A stretch of DNA of 64,000 bases from Frigoriflavimonas asaccharolytica (lineage in GTDB: Bacteria; Bacteroidota; Bacteroidia; Flavobacteriales; Weeksellaceae), in assembly GCF_013294015.1 (NCBI RefSeq), contig NZ_JABSNO010000008.1, forward strand, positions 1 through 64,000, written 5' to 3'. Shown here in pieces: positions 30,879-60,180 of this stretch; position 1 is the first letter of the stretch; the number at the start of each line of letters is the position of its first letter. The notes under the pieces are model-generated. The model was not told the origin of the DNA. It did not search any database and worked only from the letters and a program-made list of their open reading frames with translations. The position numbers were made by a program, and so were the translations under genes.

Positions 30879-30890
30879 AATAAAAAAAAA

Positions 30891-30916
30891 TGCTCTGTGA
30901 AAACAGAGCATTTTTT
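30891..30916 (+). terminator. Terminator after panC
   Basis: TGCTCTGT, loop GAAA, ACAGAGCA and TTTTTT. The 8-bp stem (30891-30898 with 30903-30910) lies 13 nt after the panC stop. Confidence 0.9.
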
Positions 30917-30937
30917 CTTTTAAAAATAATTAAAAAG

Positions 30938-52569: not shown

Positions 52570-54654
52570 TTGACCCACTCTACTTCCATAGAATTCTTGA
52601 AAGGCATTGGTCCAGATCGTGCAAAATTGCTGCGAGATGTACTCCATATTGCAACTGTTGGGGATTTTTTAAATTATTTCCCGATAAGATATTTAGATAA
52701 AAGCAAAATATACACTGCAGCTGAACTGCACGAAAATCTTCCGGAAGTACAATTAAAAGGCACAATTTCAAATCTTCAAGAAATTTCTTACGGCGCAAAA
52801 AAAAGATTATCTGCACAATTTCAAGATGAGACTGGAAGCATTAATCTTGTTTGGTTCAAGTATTCCAAATGGTTGAAAGATCAAATTGTAGAAAATAAAT
52901 CTGTTTTTATTTACGGATCAATCACAGTTTTTAACCAAGCCTTTTCTATGGCGCATCCAGAAATTGAAGTAGAAGATTTGGAAACACAACAGAAAACTTG
53001 GCTACCAATTTATTCTAATTCAGAAAAATTAAGTAAAAGAGGCATAAATCAAAAATTATTTCAAAATATTTTAAAGAATATTACGCTTCAAATTCCAATT
53101 TTAATTCAAGAAAATCTCCCCAACTATTTTTTGAAAGCATTAAATTTAATGTCTCGACAAGATGCTTATCTCAATGTTCATTTTCCAAAAGATGAATTGA
53201 CATTGAAAGCAGCCAATCGCAGGTTAAAATTTGAAGAAGCTTTTTTTTTCCAATTGGGATATGCCTTGAAAAAGCAAAACCACCACACCAATGCTATAGG
53301 AAATCCATTCCCGATTGTAGGCGATTATTTTAATAATTTTTTTATAAACCACCTACCTTTTGATTTGACTGGTGCACAAAAACGCGTACTTAAAGAAATA
53401 CGTGGAGATATGCGAAAATCTATCCAAATGAATAGGCTTTTACAGGGCGATGTAGGATCTGGAAAAACGATGGTTGCACTTCTCACGATGCTGATTGCAT
53501 TAGACAATGGATTTCAAAGTTGCCTAATGGCACCTACAGAAATTCTCGCACAGCAACATTATAATGGAATTTCCGATCTATTGGAAGGTACTGGAATTAC
53601 GATTTCGTTATTGACTGGTTCTGTAAAGAAATCTGCTAGAAAACCTATTCATGAAAATCTTTTGAATGGTGATTTAAAAATTTTGGTAGGTACTCACGCA
53701 CTTTTAGAGCCAATTGTTCAATTTAAAAACCTCGGTTTGGCAATAATTGATGAACAGCATAGATTTGGCGTGGCACAAAGAGCAAAATTGTGGGCTAAAA
53801 ATAAAATTCCACCACATATTTTGGTAATGACGGCAACTCCAATCCCGAGAACTTTAGCCATGAGTTTTTATAGCGATTTGGATGTATCTGTAATTGATGA
53901 AATGCCAATTGGTAGAAAACCGATAATTACAGCACACAGAAGAGAGAAAGATAGGGTTTCGGTTTATAATTTTTGCCGAGACGAATTAAAAAAAGGAAGG
54001 CAAGTCTATTTCGTATATCCATTAATTGAAGAATCTGAAACATTAGATTATAAAAATTTAGGAGATGGATATGCACATATTGTAGAACATTTTCCAGAAT
54101 ATAAAATAGGATTTCTCCATGGCAGAATGAAGCCTGATGAAAAAGATGCTGCCATGCAAAAATTTGCTAGAGGCGAGACCCATATTTTGGTTTCTACCAC
54201 TGTGATAGAGGTTGGAGTAAATGTACCAAATGCATCATTAATTATTATCGAAAGTTCCGAAAGATTTGGTCTTTCCCAATTGCATCAGCTTAGAGGTAGA
54301 GTTGGGCGTGATTCTGAACAAAGTTATTGCATTTTGATGACATCTGACAAACTCACCAATGAAAGCCGAAAACGCATCAAAACAATGGTAGATACAAATG
54401 ATGGCTTCAAAATTTCTGAAGTAGATTTAGAAATTCGCGGACCAGGAGATTTGCTTGGCACGCAACAAAGCGGAGTTTTGGATTTTAAAAAATTAAATTT
54501 AGCAGAAGACGCAATTTTGATTGCTGAATCTAAAAAAGCGGTAGAAAAATTAATAGAAAAAGATCCGTTTTTAAATCATGTTGATCACAAAGATTTAAAA
54601 ATTTATTACAAAAATTACTACAGCGGAAAAATAAAGTGGGGAAAAATTTCTTAA
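52570..54654 (+). CDS. recG: ATP-dependent DNA helicase RecG
   Basis: The 694-residue protein has the RecG wedge/OB region (LKGIGPDRAKLLRDVL, then an OB fold to ~150), the helicase core with LLQGDVGSGKT (Walker A), IIDEQHRFG, TATPIPRTLAM, RGRVGRDSEQS and GPGDLLGTQQSG. It remodels stalled replication forks. The best start is TTG at 52570; no ATG fits the conserved N terminus. Confidence 0.95.
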   Translation: MTHSTSIEFLKGIGPDRAKLLRDVLHIATVGDFLNYFPIRYLDKSKIYTAAELHENLPEVQLKGTISNLQEISYGAKKRLSAQFQDETGSINLVWFKYSKWLKDQIVENKSVFIYGSITVFNQAFSMAHPEIEVEDLETQQKTWLPIYSNSEKLSKRGINQKLFQNILKNITLQIPILIQENLPNYFLKALNLMSRQDAYLNVHFPKDELTLKAANRRLKFEEAFFFQLGYALKKQNHHTNAIGNPFPIVGDYFNNFFINHLPFDLTGAQKRVLKEIRGDMRKSIQMNRLLQGDVGSGKTMVALLTMLIALDNGFQSCLMAPTEILAQQHYNGISDLLEGTGITISLLTGSVKKSARKPIHENLLNGDLKILVGTHALLEPIVQFKNLGLAIIDEQHRFGVAQRAKLWAKNKIPPHILVMTATPIPRTLAMSFYSDLDVSVIDEMPIGRKPIITAHRREKDRVSVYNFCRDELKKGRQVYFVYPLIEESETLDYKNLGDGYAHIVEHFPEYKIGFLHGRMKPDEKDAAMQKFARGETHILVSTTVIEVGVNVPNASLIIIESSERFGLSQLHQLRGRVGRDSEQSYCILMTSDKLTNESRKRIKTMVDTNDGFKISEVDLEIRGPGDLLGTQQSGVLDFKKLNLAEDAILIAESKKAVEKLIEKDPFLNHVDHKDLKIYYKNYYSGKIKWGKIS

Positions 54655-54657
54655 GTG

Positions 54658-55464
54658 TTACACCTCGCCCATTACCATCATCTGTTCCATAGTTGGAGTT
54701 TTACTTCCTCCTTCCTTTTCTAAAGTGATGCCAAAAGCTTGCGCATTTTTTACAGACTTCATACTATGTACTTTCTTTCCATCTGCCACGTACATTCCCA
54801 AATCCACAGGTTTACCATCTACAATTGCCCAAACTTGATACTGTTTTCCTTCTGGTGGAGTTGGCAAATTGCCAGATTCAAAATATACATTTTCAGATCC
54901 ATCCCAATAAATGTGTGCAACCATATCTGGGTGTTTTTCCACACCATTCAATTGTATCTTGTTCGCATTTAGAAGCATCGTGTTCTGATTCGCAAGAAAT
55001 TCAACTTCTTTTTTATTCAAAGAATTTTGAGTTTCTGCTGCAACTAAAGATTGTTCCATCTTTTGGTTACTGTACATTGTCCAACCAAAGGTCATTAACA
55101 AAACTACAGATGCTGCAGCTAACCATGTAGTAACATTGCTTCTTCCTTTTACAATATCAGGTGAAATCTGTTTTACATTCAGTTGGTGAGTGGGGATATT
55201 ACTATTTAAGATTGGTGTTTCTTCTATAGGAGCACTTGTTGCAAAATTTAACTTTGCGAAAATTTCAGATTTTAAATGCTGAGGAGGCTCAACGGAATTT
55301 GAATCTGCTAAAATCTCTAAAGTATTTTCCAGCTCATTAAGGGCTGATTTAACCTCTGCATTATTTTTAGAAATACATTCTAAAATAGAATTTTCCTCTT
55401 GAGAATTATTCCCCAAAAGATGATTTTCTAAAATTCCAGATTGTATGTAAGCTTTAATATCCAC
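54658..55464 (-). CDS. Anti-sigma factor (RskA-like) with one membrane helix
   Basis: The 268-residue protein has a helical N-terminal part (~1-105), one membrane helix (LAAASVVLLMTFGWTMY, ~114-130) and a C-terminal RskA-like domain (HIYWDGSENVYFES, GKQYQVWAIVDGKPVDLGM). It should hold the ECF sigma factor at the inner membrane. It starts 3 nt after the sigma gene stop and is cotranscribed. Confidence 0.9.
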   Translation of the reverse strand: MDIKAYIQSGILENHLLGNNSQEENSILECISKNNAEVKSALNELENTLEILADSNSVEPPQHLKSEIFAKLNFATSAPIEETPILNSNIPTHQLNVKQISPDIVKGRSNVTTWLAAASVVLLMTFGWTMYSNQKMEQSLVAAETQNSLNKKEVEFLANQNTMLLNANKIQLNGVEKHPDMVAHIYWDGSENVYFESGNLPTPPEGKQYQVWAIVDGKPVDLGMYVADGKKVHSMKSVKNAQAFGITLEKEGGSKTPTMEQMMVMGEV

Positions 55465-55466
55465 TA

Positions 55467-56024
55467 TTAAAAATTATTTTTATATTCACTTAAAAGCGTT
55501 CTTAACTCTTGAAATGCAGCTCTTGTCCTCGTTTTCACGGTTCCTAAAGGTATTCCTAGGTTTTCAGATATCTCTTCTTGAGTGTAACCCTCAAAGTACG
55601 CTTGTTTTATAACAACACTATAATCAGCTCTCATTTGATCTACAACATTCTTTACTTCTCCAAAATTATGAATCTGTTCAGTTGTAAGCTGTTTGCTGTC
55701 ATTTACGAAGTCTGGAATACTTTGGTTTTTAAGATTGTTTTTATAAGCTTTTGATCGTATTCTATCTATTGCAGAGTTTCTAGCAATATTAAGCATCCAA
55801 GTATATATTGTTCCTTTTTCTACATCAAAAGATTGGATGTTGTTCCAAATTTTCACAAATACGTCTTGTAAAACTTCATTAGCTTCATCTTGAAACAATA
55901 CTACTTTTAATATAGTCCCATACAATGCTCCAGAATAGTTGGTGTATAAATAATTAAATCCACTCTCTTCTTTATTTAAAAGGAGTTTAACTATTTCAGG
56001 CTGGGAAAGTACAGTTTTTTGCAA
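55467..56024 (-). CDS. ECF-type RNA polymerase sigma factor
   Basis: The 185-residue protein has sigma-2 (residues ~22-95; NEVLQDVFVKIWNNIQSF, TWMLNIARNSAIDRIRS) and sigma-4 with a helix-turn-helix (EGYTQEEISENLGIPLGTVK). It should direct transcription of an envelope or stress regulon under the control of the next gene. A TATATTTG box is 21 nt before the start. Confidence 0.95.
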   Translation of the reverse strand: MQKTVLSQPEIVKLLLNKEESGFNYLYTNYSGALYGTILKVVLFQDEANEVLQDVFVKIWNNIQSFDVEKGTIYTWMLNIARNSAIDRIRSKAYKNNLKNQSIPDFVNDSKQLTTEQIHNFGEVKNVVDQMRADYSVVIKQAYFEGYTQEEISENLGIPLGTVKTRTRAAFQELRTLLSEYKNNF

Positions 56025-56044: not shown

Positions 56045-56052
56045 CAAATATA
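56045..56052 (-). promoter_or_regulatory. -7 box TATATTTG before the ECF sigma gene
   Basis: An exact TAnnTTTG match on the minus strand, 21 nt before ATG 56024. It would drive the sigma/anti-sigma operon. Confidence 0.55.
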
Positions 56053-56214
56053 ATTTAAATTTACACAACAGCAAAAAAAAACATGCTTTTTATAAATAAA
56101 AAACCAATTCTTGCAATCCAAAAAAATTAATATTGCGTATTTAGTTATGAAATCAAATTAATTTCTATCTATTTTGTAATAAATATTTAAATTTTGTTTT
56201 ATATCAAAACCAAT

Positions 56215-56345
56215 TTAGTAGAATTAATCCACGTGGTGTTGTTTAAATTATTTCCGATGAAGCAACATCATGGTTTTTCATAGTTTTTTATTTTTAATGG
56301 GAGTGCCATTCAAATCTGTTTTTGAATGGCATTTTTCATTTTTTA
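56215..56345 (+). ncRNA. Candidate structured small RNA with terminator
   Basis: Two hairpins lie in the gap between the ECF sigma gene and recO. Stem 1: GTGGTGTTGTTT (56233-56244) with AAGCAACATCAT (56260-56271), 12 pairs including G-U. Stem 2: TGCCATTCAAA (56304-56314) with TTTGAATGGCA (56321-56331), 11 perfect pairs, then TTTTT and further T. The T-run is on the plus strand, but no plus-strand gene precedes it, so the transcript would be its own RNA. The rest of 56025-56353 shows no gene beyond a 9-codon frame at 56257. Confidence 0.45.
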
Positions 56346-56353
56346 GATAAAAA

Positions 56354-57043
56354 TTATTCAAAAATTTGTTTCAAGATTTCTAAGGATTTTGGCTCTCGAA
56401 AATCTGTAAGGTGGCATTTAAAATAGATAAGCAAAGAATCTAAAAAAAGTTTTTTTAATTTCGATGGTATTTTGACAGTAAAAATATCCTCAGAAACTGC
56501 CAAAATTTTGTACAGTGCTGAAATTTCTCTATTAAAAATAGGATGAGAAATATCATTTTCAAAATTTCCAGATTCAGGATTTAAGAACTCCTCTGAAGAT
56601 AATAAAGGATCAAAGCCTAGAATTTCTAATAAACTATATAGAAAAATAAGATGAGATTGATAATTGTTTGCGCGCAGCTCTTCTAAGAAATTTTCTAATG
56701 CCTTATAAATATAGACATTCTTATTTTCTAATTTTAAAATTTGATTAAGAAAATCTGCGACAAAAAATAGTATTGCGTTTGCTTGTACTTTCGTATTTAA
56801 ATCTCTGTTGACTATTAATTCTAAGCGAGAAATATGTGATAAAGAACCGCTTTTGAAATTATTATTTATGGTAAGTTGGAGTTCATTTAATGGAAGCAAA
56901 TATGCTTTTTTCTTGTTTTTAGAACTATAAATTCCTTTAAGAAAAAATGTTTGAAATCCGTTTTCTTTAGTGAAAAAATGCAACACAGCGTCGTTTTCAC
57001 CAAATTTCACGTAAGAAAGTAAAAAACCTTGCAGGTTGTGCAT
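56354..57043 (-). CDS. recO: DNA repair protein RecO
   Basis: The 229-residue protein has the RecO OB fold at the N terminus (GFLLSYVKFGENDAVLHFFT, IYSSKNKKKAYLLPL) and the helical C-terminal part. RecO mediates RecA loading in recombinational repair. Its ATG overlaps the porZ stop (TAATG), so the two are translationally coupled. Confidence 0.9.
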   Translation of the reverse strand: MHNLQGFLLSYVKFGENDAVLHFFTKENGFQTFFLKGIYSSKNKKKAYLLPLNELQLTINNNFKSGSLSHISRLELIVNRDLNTKVQANAILFFVADFLNQILKLENKNVYIYKALENFLEELRANNYQSHLIFLYSLLEILGFDPLLSSEEFLNPESGNFENDISHPIFNREISALYKILAVSEDIFTVKIPSKLKKLFLDSLLIYFKCHLTDFREPKSLEILKQIFE

Positions 57044-59400: not shown

Positions 59401-60180
59401 TTATCCGTAGATTTCGTCTAAAATTTTCGCTAAACGCAAGCCACCTTTTTGCAATTGGTTTTTTACAACTGGCAAATAAACATAGGAATATTTGTACGAT
59501 AGTTTTTCATCCATCTTCGCAGAAGAATATACTGTTGCAGCCAATATTTGAGATTCGTAAACCCAATCTAAAACGCTGCCTTTTTGCAATTCTACTTTCT
59601 GGCTTTTATTAGCATACGGCAAATTATCTGTTAATTCTGTATAGCTCATTCCAAAATCGTCTATCATATCGCCATCCCAAACTCTGTGCAAATTGCTGCT
59701 TTTACCAAACCAACTTACTTTTATATCATTGCCACCTTTATCTTCTTCATGCCCAACGTGCAATGGTTGATGCAAATCTCCCACAAAGTGAATAAGCATT
59801 TTTAAGTAAAACTTTTGATCTTCTAAACTGGTATTTTTATCTTTTAAAGTTGCAACGCAAAAATTAATAGCTTGATACAAATCTCCTTCAGGATTCTTCG
59901 TTGCCTCATTGTATTTTTCATTTTCTTTGAAATTTACAAAATGCCAAGAATAGAATTTTTTGTAGCGATCGTCAGATTTTATTTCATCACCGAATGTAGA
60001 CATATTTGCTAAAGATTCATAATTGGTGATTTTGTTTATTTTGCGAAGCGTTCTATGCTTTAGATTATTTGCAGCCACCTCTCCTATCACTCTGTGCCCA
60101 GTTTGAGACCACGCAAAGACCATTTGAGTACTAAAAAGGACTATGAAAATAGAAGATATTTTCTTGAAAAATTTATTCAT
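59401..60180 (-). CDS. S1/P1-type zinc nuclease, exported
   Basis: The 259-residue protein has a signal ending before Trp (STQMVFAWSQTGH); the new N-terminal Trp is a known zinc ligand in this family. Other ligand motifs are visible: GHRVIGEVA, HFVGDLHQPLHVGHEEDKGG and NLHRVWDGDMIDD. It should cut single-stranded nucleic acid outside the cell or in the periplasm. It starts 6 nt after the stop of the phytase-like gene. Confidence 0.93.
   Translation of the reverse strand: MNKFFKKISSIFIVLFSTQMVFAWSQTGHRVIGEVAANNLKHRTLRKINKITNYESLANMSTFGDEIKSDDRYKKFYSWHFVNFKENEKYNEATKNPEGDLYQAINFCVATLKDKNTSLEDQKFYLKMLIHFVGDLHQPLHVGHEEDKGGNDIKVSWFGKSSNLHRVWDGDMIDDFGMSYTELTDNLPYANKSQKVELQKGSVLDWVYESQILAATVYSSAKMDEKLSYKYSYVYLPVVKNQLQKGGLRLAKILDEIYG

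Follow-up and report, generated by a model that had tools for sequence, protein, structure and literature searches.

In the window, which is the whole 64,000-nt stretch of DNA that was analysed, the gap between recO and an ECF sigma factor gene appears to hold, on the plus strand, a gene for a small RNA of some 190 nt that derives from a 3′UTR and is made when the neighbouring sigma factor is active; we give this reading moderate confidence. Comparison with relatives shows that the 3′ part of the candidate corresponds to the 3′UTR (linker and terminator) of their msrB-fasciclin operon, and suggests that the RNA tail of a lost operon now acts on its own as a small regulatory RNA. An earlier note on this DNA had taken two hairpins in the gap, a 12-bp stem and an 11-bp stem with a T-tail, for a candidate small RNA that might or might not be linked to the sigma factor. 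The small RNA survives in the form of the linker and terminator, but the 12-bp stem has no known homologue and does not rise above chance. The sigma-linked version is the best-supported reading, through a sigma-type promoter motif shared with the divergent operon of relatives and a conserved 3′UTR-terminator module that has been kept (Table 1).

Table 1. Features of the sigma locus in the window
Feature	Position	Strand	Basis
Anti-sigma factor gene with RskA_C domain	54658..55464	-	domain match
ECF sigma factor gene, SigK-like cassette	55467..56024	-	Pfam Sigma70_r2/r4
Housekeeping-type promoter of sigma gene, TTG-N19-TATATTTG	56045..56074	-	TAnnTTTG in 63/63 loci
Candidate ECF-sigma promoter, CCAAA-N13-CGTA	56118..56139	+	motif class common to relatives' divergent strand
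Predicted small RNA	56147..56342	+	inferred; start from motif, end from terminator
Hairpin 1, 13 pairs with G-U, function unsupported	56232..56272	+	folding
Conserved U-rich linker, proposed seed for start-codon contexts	56275..56303	+	conservation, complementarity
Intrinsic terminator, 11-bp perfect core 56304-56331, U-rich tail	56299..56342	+	homologous to relatives' fasciclin-operon terminator
recO, convergent neighbour of predicted RNA	56354..57043	-	

The locus, its hairpins and its promoter motifs

On the minus strand the genes run porZ, recO, gap, ECF sigma gene, anti-sigma gene, and the 330-nt gap carries both stems on the plus strand. The stems lie where the earlier note placed them, with no plus-strand gene ending nearby: the nearest one upstream, recG, ends at 54654, and the stop of the convergent anti-sigma gene is 3 bp away. 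Between the stops of this convergent pair (52570-55464) there is no plus-strand terminator, and with a spacing of 3 bp antisense read-through is likely. An S1/P1 nuclease gene (59401-60180, minus strand; Pfam E 3.5e-63) lies upstream of porZ. The succession of an ECF sigma gene and an RskA_C anti-sigma gene is that of a SigK-RskA cassette. RecO is about 52% identical to its counterparts in Chryseobacterium and Kaistella, of which the window organism is, on sequence grounds, a relative. The downstream neighbours of recO differ in five named relatives from these two genera, so that conservation ties the element to the sigma gene and not to recO. At the Rfam gathering score the whole window gave three tRNAs only, and no family matched the element.

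Stem 2 has a core of 11 perfect pairs between 56304-56314 and 56321-56331 (TGCCATTCAAA/TTTGAATGGCA), widens outward to 16 pairs over 56299-56336 and runs into a T-rich tail. It thereby has the GC-containing stem and U-rich tail of an intrinsic terminator, and among the sites listed it is the sole plus-strand terminator-like site from recG to recO. The G-U exceptions that had been reported are confirmed, since stem 1 comprises 13 pairs including G-U and the outer extension of stem 2 likewise contains G-U. Compared with shuffles, folding of 151 nt gave z = -5.8 on the plus strand, most of this signal being due to stem 2, and z = -3.8 on the minus strand; the RNA body minus stem 2 gave z = -2.25, with 9 of 500 shuffles folding equally well. 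Stem 1 alone is not unusual: hairpin 1 has an energy of -15.4 kcal/mol, and the plus strand of the window has 22 sites at which 50 nt fold to -15 kcal/mol or below. Hairpin 1 and the 5′ 80 nt are without known homologues, which weighs against the small RNA reading. On the minus strand hairpin 1 resembles a gene of four relatives that we take, by eye, to be alpha/beta-hydrolase-like (35-37 nt, 84-89%); this likeness did not extend further and was taken as chance. A 26-aa ORF from 56271, which overlaps the terminator, was not taken as a gene, nor were antisense ORFs that start in the linker (12 codons in the window, 5 to 16 in four relatives).

The motif TAnnTTTG, of the Bacteroidota housekeeping promoter type, occurs within 200 nt upstream of the sigma gene in 63 of 63 sigma loci; PMC9723704 gives this consensus. 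From its copy in the window the sigma mRNA should start beyond both hairpins. This promoter, together with the lack of a U-tail to stem 2 on the minus strand, makes it extremely improbable that the element belongs to the sigma transcript as a minus-strand leader or attenuator, even though the minus strand also folds better than shuffles.

A second motif, YYAA-N14-CGTA, lies on the strand divergent from the sigma gene within 1,400 nt in 57 of the 63 loci and within 360 nt in 44. Its exact form, CYAAA-N13-CGTA, has 50 matches on both strands of 3.43 Mb, from which about 0.002 would be expected on one strand of this gap. The reversed control has 141 matches; the motif is not enriched genome-wide, which counts against the small RNA reading and leaves position as the sole evidence for a promoter. 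A fasciclin gene elsewhere in the genome (C2:58762-59446) has CTAAA-N13-CGTA directly upstream, and is likely, from this arrangement, to be another member of the sigma regulon.

The msrB-fasciclin operon of relatives and its conserved tail

We compared 63 loci with the best homologues of the sigma gene (48 + 15, window included). As these were chosen by best score, they represent part of the family genomes that bear a homologue (192 of 320). At 58 of the 63 loci the strand divergent from the sigma gene bears a gene for a fasciclin protein (Pfam E 3.7e-37 in one of them), often with msrB, which encodes a SelR domain, ahead of it. The five loci without fasciclin in the captured flank are those of the window, G054, G074, G077 and G122, the last of which is cut by a contig edge and has msrB. 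Unlike the 58, the window has no fasciclin gene adjoining the sigma gene; msrB is missing there as well, and what is kept is a copy of the promoter motif and the 3′ tail of the operon. Other fasciclin genes of the same genome are found at C6, with 77% identity to a syntenic one, and at C2, where identity is 62% and the motif lies upstream. Fasciclin or msrB remnants were not detected in the 135-nt core in the window, 210 and 294 of 300 shuffles, respectively, reaching the score. A profile of the relatives' 3′UTR matched the window (E 0.00043), and a profile of the fasciclin coding end gave nothing significant in it.

At 16 loci of genus g27 a linker (consensus TTTCATAGTTTT.ATTTTTAATGG) and then the terminator come after the fasciclin ORF. 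Positions 56276-56340 of the window correspond to this element, the linker in the tail being TTTTCATAGTTTT..ATTTTTAATGG. A covariance model of 11 relatives from which the window and G074 had been left out, and whose E-values are rough, gave the window element 53.0 bits (E 2.5e-8 in 64 kb) and G074 61.1 bits. The second-best match in the window (30879-30934, minus strand) reached 22.5 bits (E 0.026); this site is an ordinary terminator just after a tRNA gene, without a linker. In an alignment of 13 rows, window and G074 included, 129 of 129 cells of the terminator stem are paired and 8 of 10 pairs have changed on both sides, a level of covariation reached by 0 of 500 shuffles. A covariation search in relatives was one of the checks that the earlier note had proposed, with lack of a plus-strand transcript and of conservation of the stems to count against an RNA; stem 2 proves to be conserved, and for stem 1 no homologue was found. 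A plain DNA search of 296 family genomes gave weak matches in 50, useful only against the sigma positions.

Could the terminator instead serve to end read-through from recG, with no separate RNA gene? Among the sites listed, none of terminator type lies on the plus strand from recG to 56299, but the terminator descends from the fasciclin operon and the promoter motif lies in between, and we consider this very improbable.

The tail has also outlived its ORF in other genomes. In G074 (L047) the fasciclin gene is cut to a C-terminal remnant (alignment score 109, against a mean of about 21 for shuffled pairs), with promoter motif and module intact. An inverted repeat (AAGACGCA...TGCGTCTT), possibly the product of a template-switch mutation, frames the remnant, which lies between motif and module. 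In G054 (L039) two sigma-type promoter motifs frame a hairpin and terminator unit before a gene that we take, by eye, to be ferritin-like; this unit is possibly another RNA gene at the same place.

A search of the 320 family genomes was carried out with the first model, which included the window, and gave matches at E <= 0.01 in 65 of them. The 19 strongest matches (>= 63 bits) comprise 15 cassette fasciclin genes, the window, G074, and two further fasciclin genes, in G171 and G128, genomes that lack a close sigma homologue. Among the weaker matches is a second class of the module, at the 3′ end of a gene for a small secreted protein; it occurs in 8 genomes from several genera (G004, G022, G034, G044, G052, G066, G074 and G099; loci L192, L194, L196, L200, L203, L204, L205 and L013). 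A ferritin gene follows in seven of these eight loci, the eighth being cut short, and a glycosyltransferase gene precedes in five within the available flank. The small secreted protein gave no Pfam match and resembles Spy/CpxP, as judged by eye. In G017 (L198) that glycosyltransferase gene (54%) is followed by the module, and a match to the small protein is absent. Other weak matches of the model look like ordinary terminators (e.g. L190, L195 and L201).

We tentatively suggest, as a broader and more doubtful proposal, that these elements belong to a family of RNA modules not described before, within this family of Flavobacteriia. Such a module would combine a start-codon-complementary seed with a covarying terminator at the 3′ ends of stress genes, and could persist after loss of its ORF, becoming a free-standing sRNA gene; this seems to have happened three times or more (window, G074 and G017). 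The module, and not the protein, may then be what selection keeps, as a FopS-like repressor arm of the ECF sigma factor. If this is true, an sRNA gene was born when a protein gene was lost before its regulatory 3′ end, and intermediates of the process are found in living relatives.

Constraint on the linker and complementarity to start codons

The first 24 nt past the stop, which contain the linker, have a pairwise identity of 0.905 over the 16 loci with gaps counted, and the 21 ungapped linker columns a mean of 0.95. The corresponding values are 0.519 for 14 four-fold sites, 0.61 for third positions in the final 60 codons, and 0.90 and 0.92 for codon positions 1 and 2; DNA past the terminator mostly falls to 0.2-0.6. 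As a control, the same stretch at 22 fasciclin loci of other genera gave 0.59 (0.46 over 18 nt), four-fold sites 0.40 and third positions 0.55. Identity in the linker is thus far above that of synonymous sites, unlike in the control 3′UTRs, which argues that the linker is conserved as an element of its own. Two marks of a 3′UTR-derived sRNA, a terminator shared with a parental mRNA and conservation beyond the synonymous sites of that mRNA, are present in relatives; the window has lost the parental ORF.

These observations bear on whether the gap is simply a deletion scar, in which the operon was lost from the middle, its promoter and terminator have yet to decay, and the transcript has no function or only shields recO from sigma-driven read-through. 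What remains is indeed the promoter and terminator of the lost operon, the 135-nt core holds no ORF remnant or other homologue, and a terminator facing recO has an obvious use; moreover, the comparison set has a single genome of the window's genus and thus no close relative in which constraint after the loss could be seen. Nevertheless the linker, dispensable for promoter and terminator alike, has been preserved in the window save for a 2-nt insertion, next to fasciclin codons that have become unrecognisable. It is constrained in relatives past synonymous sites, and it has been kept in two other losses (G074 and G017). We regard a scar as unlikely, if still a serious alternative. Against the small RNA reading stands G054, in which promoter motif and terminator are kept and the linker has diverged, which speaks against a strictly conserved seed.

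The complement of the linker, AAAATAAAAAACTATGAAAA, is a typical start-codon context of these bacteria. Seventeen linker-match loci were examined, namely four cassette tails, one of the second class and 12 others, and all 12 matches outside modules lie over the start of an ORF (89 to 502 codons) on the opposite strand. The window's own genome has 55 sites with at most three mismatches to the linker complement, as against 38 for the reversed control. Among the best 30 of these sites with loci, one is that of the window, and in 19 of the 29 others the ATG opens an ORF of 50 codons or more. The sole other perfect match (20/20 complement; L140, G000:C26:38801 region) lies at the start of a gene that we take, by sequence resemblance, to be ammonium-transporter-like (amt-like). 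Predicted pairing of the linker amounts to -9.4 kcal/mol with the sigma gene, -10.4 with the C6 and -16.2 with the C2 fasciclin gene; values for ten start regions were -14 to -24 kcal/mol, a range that has no decoy set and is not used as evidence. Two points tell against the small RNA reading here. The excess of 55 over 38 is modest, and any U-rich stretch with CAU would favour A-rich start codons. The sole perfect partner outside the locus, the amt-like gene, is frameshifted after about 75 codons in the assembly.

Complementarity to the start context, taken with the precedent of FopS and GibS, leads us to propose a sigma-dependent sRNA that blocks start codons. When the ECF sigma factor is active, transcription would run from about 56147 to the terminator, and the U-rich linker UUUUCAUAGUUUUUUAUUUUUAA would remain single-stranded. 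It could then pair with the A-rich start-codon regions of mRNAs (AAAAUAAAAAACUAUGAAAA-like) and block the initiation of translation, through which the sigma factor would gain a repressing arm. In relatives the fasciclin mRNA would have this module as its 3′ end, or the module would be released from that mRNA by cleavage. If this is true, an ECF sigma factor of Flavobacteriia has acquired a noncoding arm.

Constraint on the linker could also serve mRNA stability or protein binding instead of pairing. The linker would in that case be bound by an RNA-binding protein or stabilise the 3′ ends of mRNAs, and the RNA of the window a decoy or a stable by-product. The element does occur at the 3′ ends of intact mRNAs, and the window's genome encodes one RRM_1 protein; in Bacteroides the RRM protein RbpB binds FopS RNAs, according to extracts of PMC11697453. 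The linker nevertheless closely complements start-codon contexts, which a protein site need not do, and we think such a role improbable, though less so than recG read-through.

Comparison with known systems

CpxQ is a 3′UTR-derived stress sRNA from the 3′ end of cpxP, and MicA and RybB are sigma-E sRNAs. The predicted RNA would share with them control by a stress sigma factor or origin from a stress mRNA, a terminator shared with the mRNA, and likely translational repression. A relation in sequence was not found, the module of a relative scoring 17.1 bits against RybB (gathering 40). Matches to RybB, MicC and L10 were below the cut-off, L20_leader on L203 scored 34.3 bits against a gathering score of 58.7, and all were taken as chance; Rfam searched by E-value gave nothing usable for the element and two relatives' modules.

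The fasciclin domain is also present in MPT83. In the mpt83-sigK-rskA cassette mpt83 is a target of SigK, and it has been lost in Nocardia, according to extracts of PMC7509140. The loci compared here have the same combination of an ECF sigma factor, an RskA_C anti-sigma factor and an adjacent sigma-target fasciclin gene. They differ in the window, where the fasciclin gene has been lost or moved, and promoter motif and 3′ module remain.

Closer in taxonomy are the Rfp sRNAs of Flavobacterium psychrophilum, which belongs to the same class of bacteria. Some of them have non-housekeeping promoters (Rfp36 with SM4, Rfp11 with SM6, in the parts of PMC9723704 consulted), a likeness of description and not of sequence. 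At the level of search results, the literature gave no account of such an RNA in Chryseobacterium-like bacteria.

The nearest parallel is with FopS and GibS of Bacteroides (RF04319, BTncRNA_FopS). The window element is not a member of that family by score (18.6 bits, E 2.2, gathering 56), nor are the relatives' modules (L203 18.2 bits; L169 no match row). FopS RNAs are multicopy, whereas this genome has one strong match to the module (65.7 bits), the next (37.7 bits) being without the seed. The promoter motif in the window is of ECF type and that of FopS housekeeping, and target pairing is here predicted only. The two FopS and GibS papers, as far as their extracts go, describe sRNAs whose pairing sites lie about the start codon; initiation is blocked in vitro by FopS-10, which RbpB counteracts, and a 3′UTR is the source of FopS-14 (PMC11697453, PMC7366714). 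One FopS member is thus 3′UTR-derived, like the RNA proposed here, and an RRM protein there has a possible counterpart in the one RRM_1 gene. Both share one plan, for FopS as given in PMC11697453: the RNA is short, comes from the Bacteroidota, and has an unstructured stretch with UUUUUCAU that complements start-codon regions, ahead of an intrinsic terminator. If our reading is true, start-codon-complementary sRNAs are a wider theme of the Bacteroidota than FopS and GibS.
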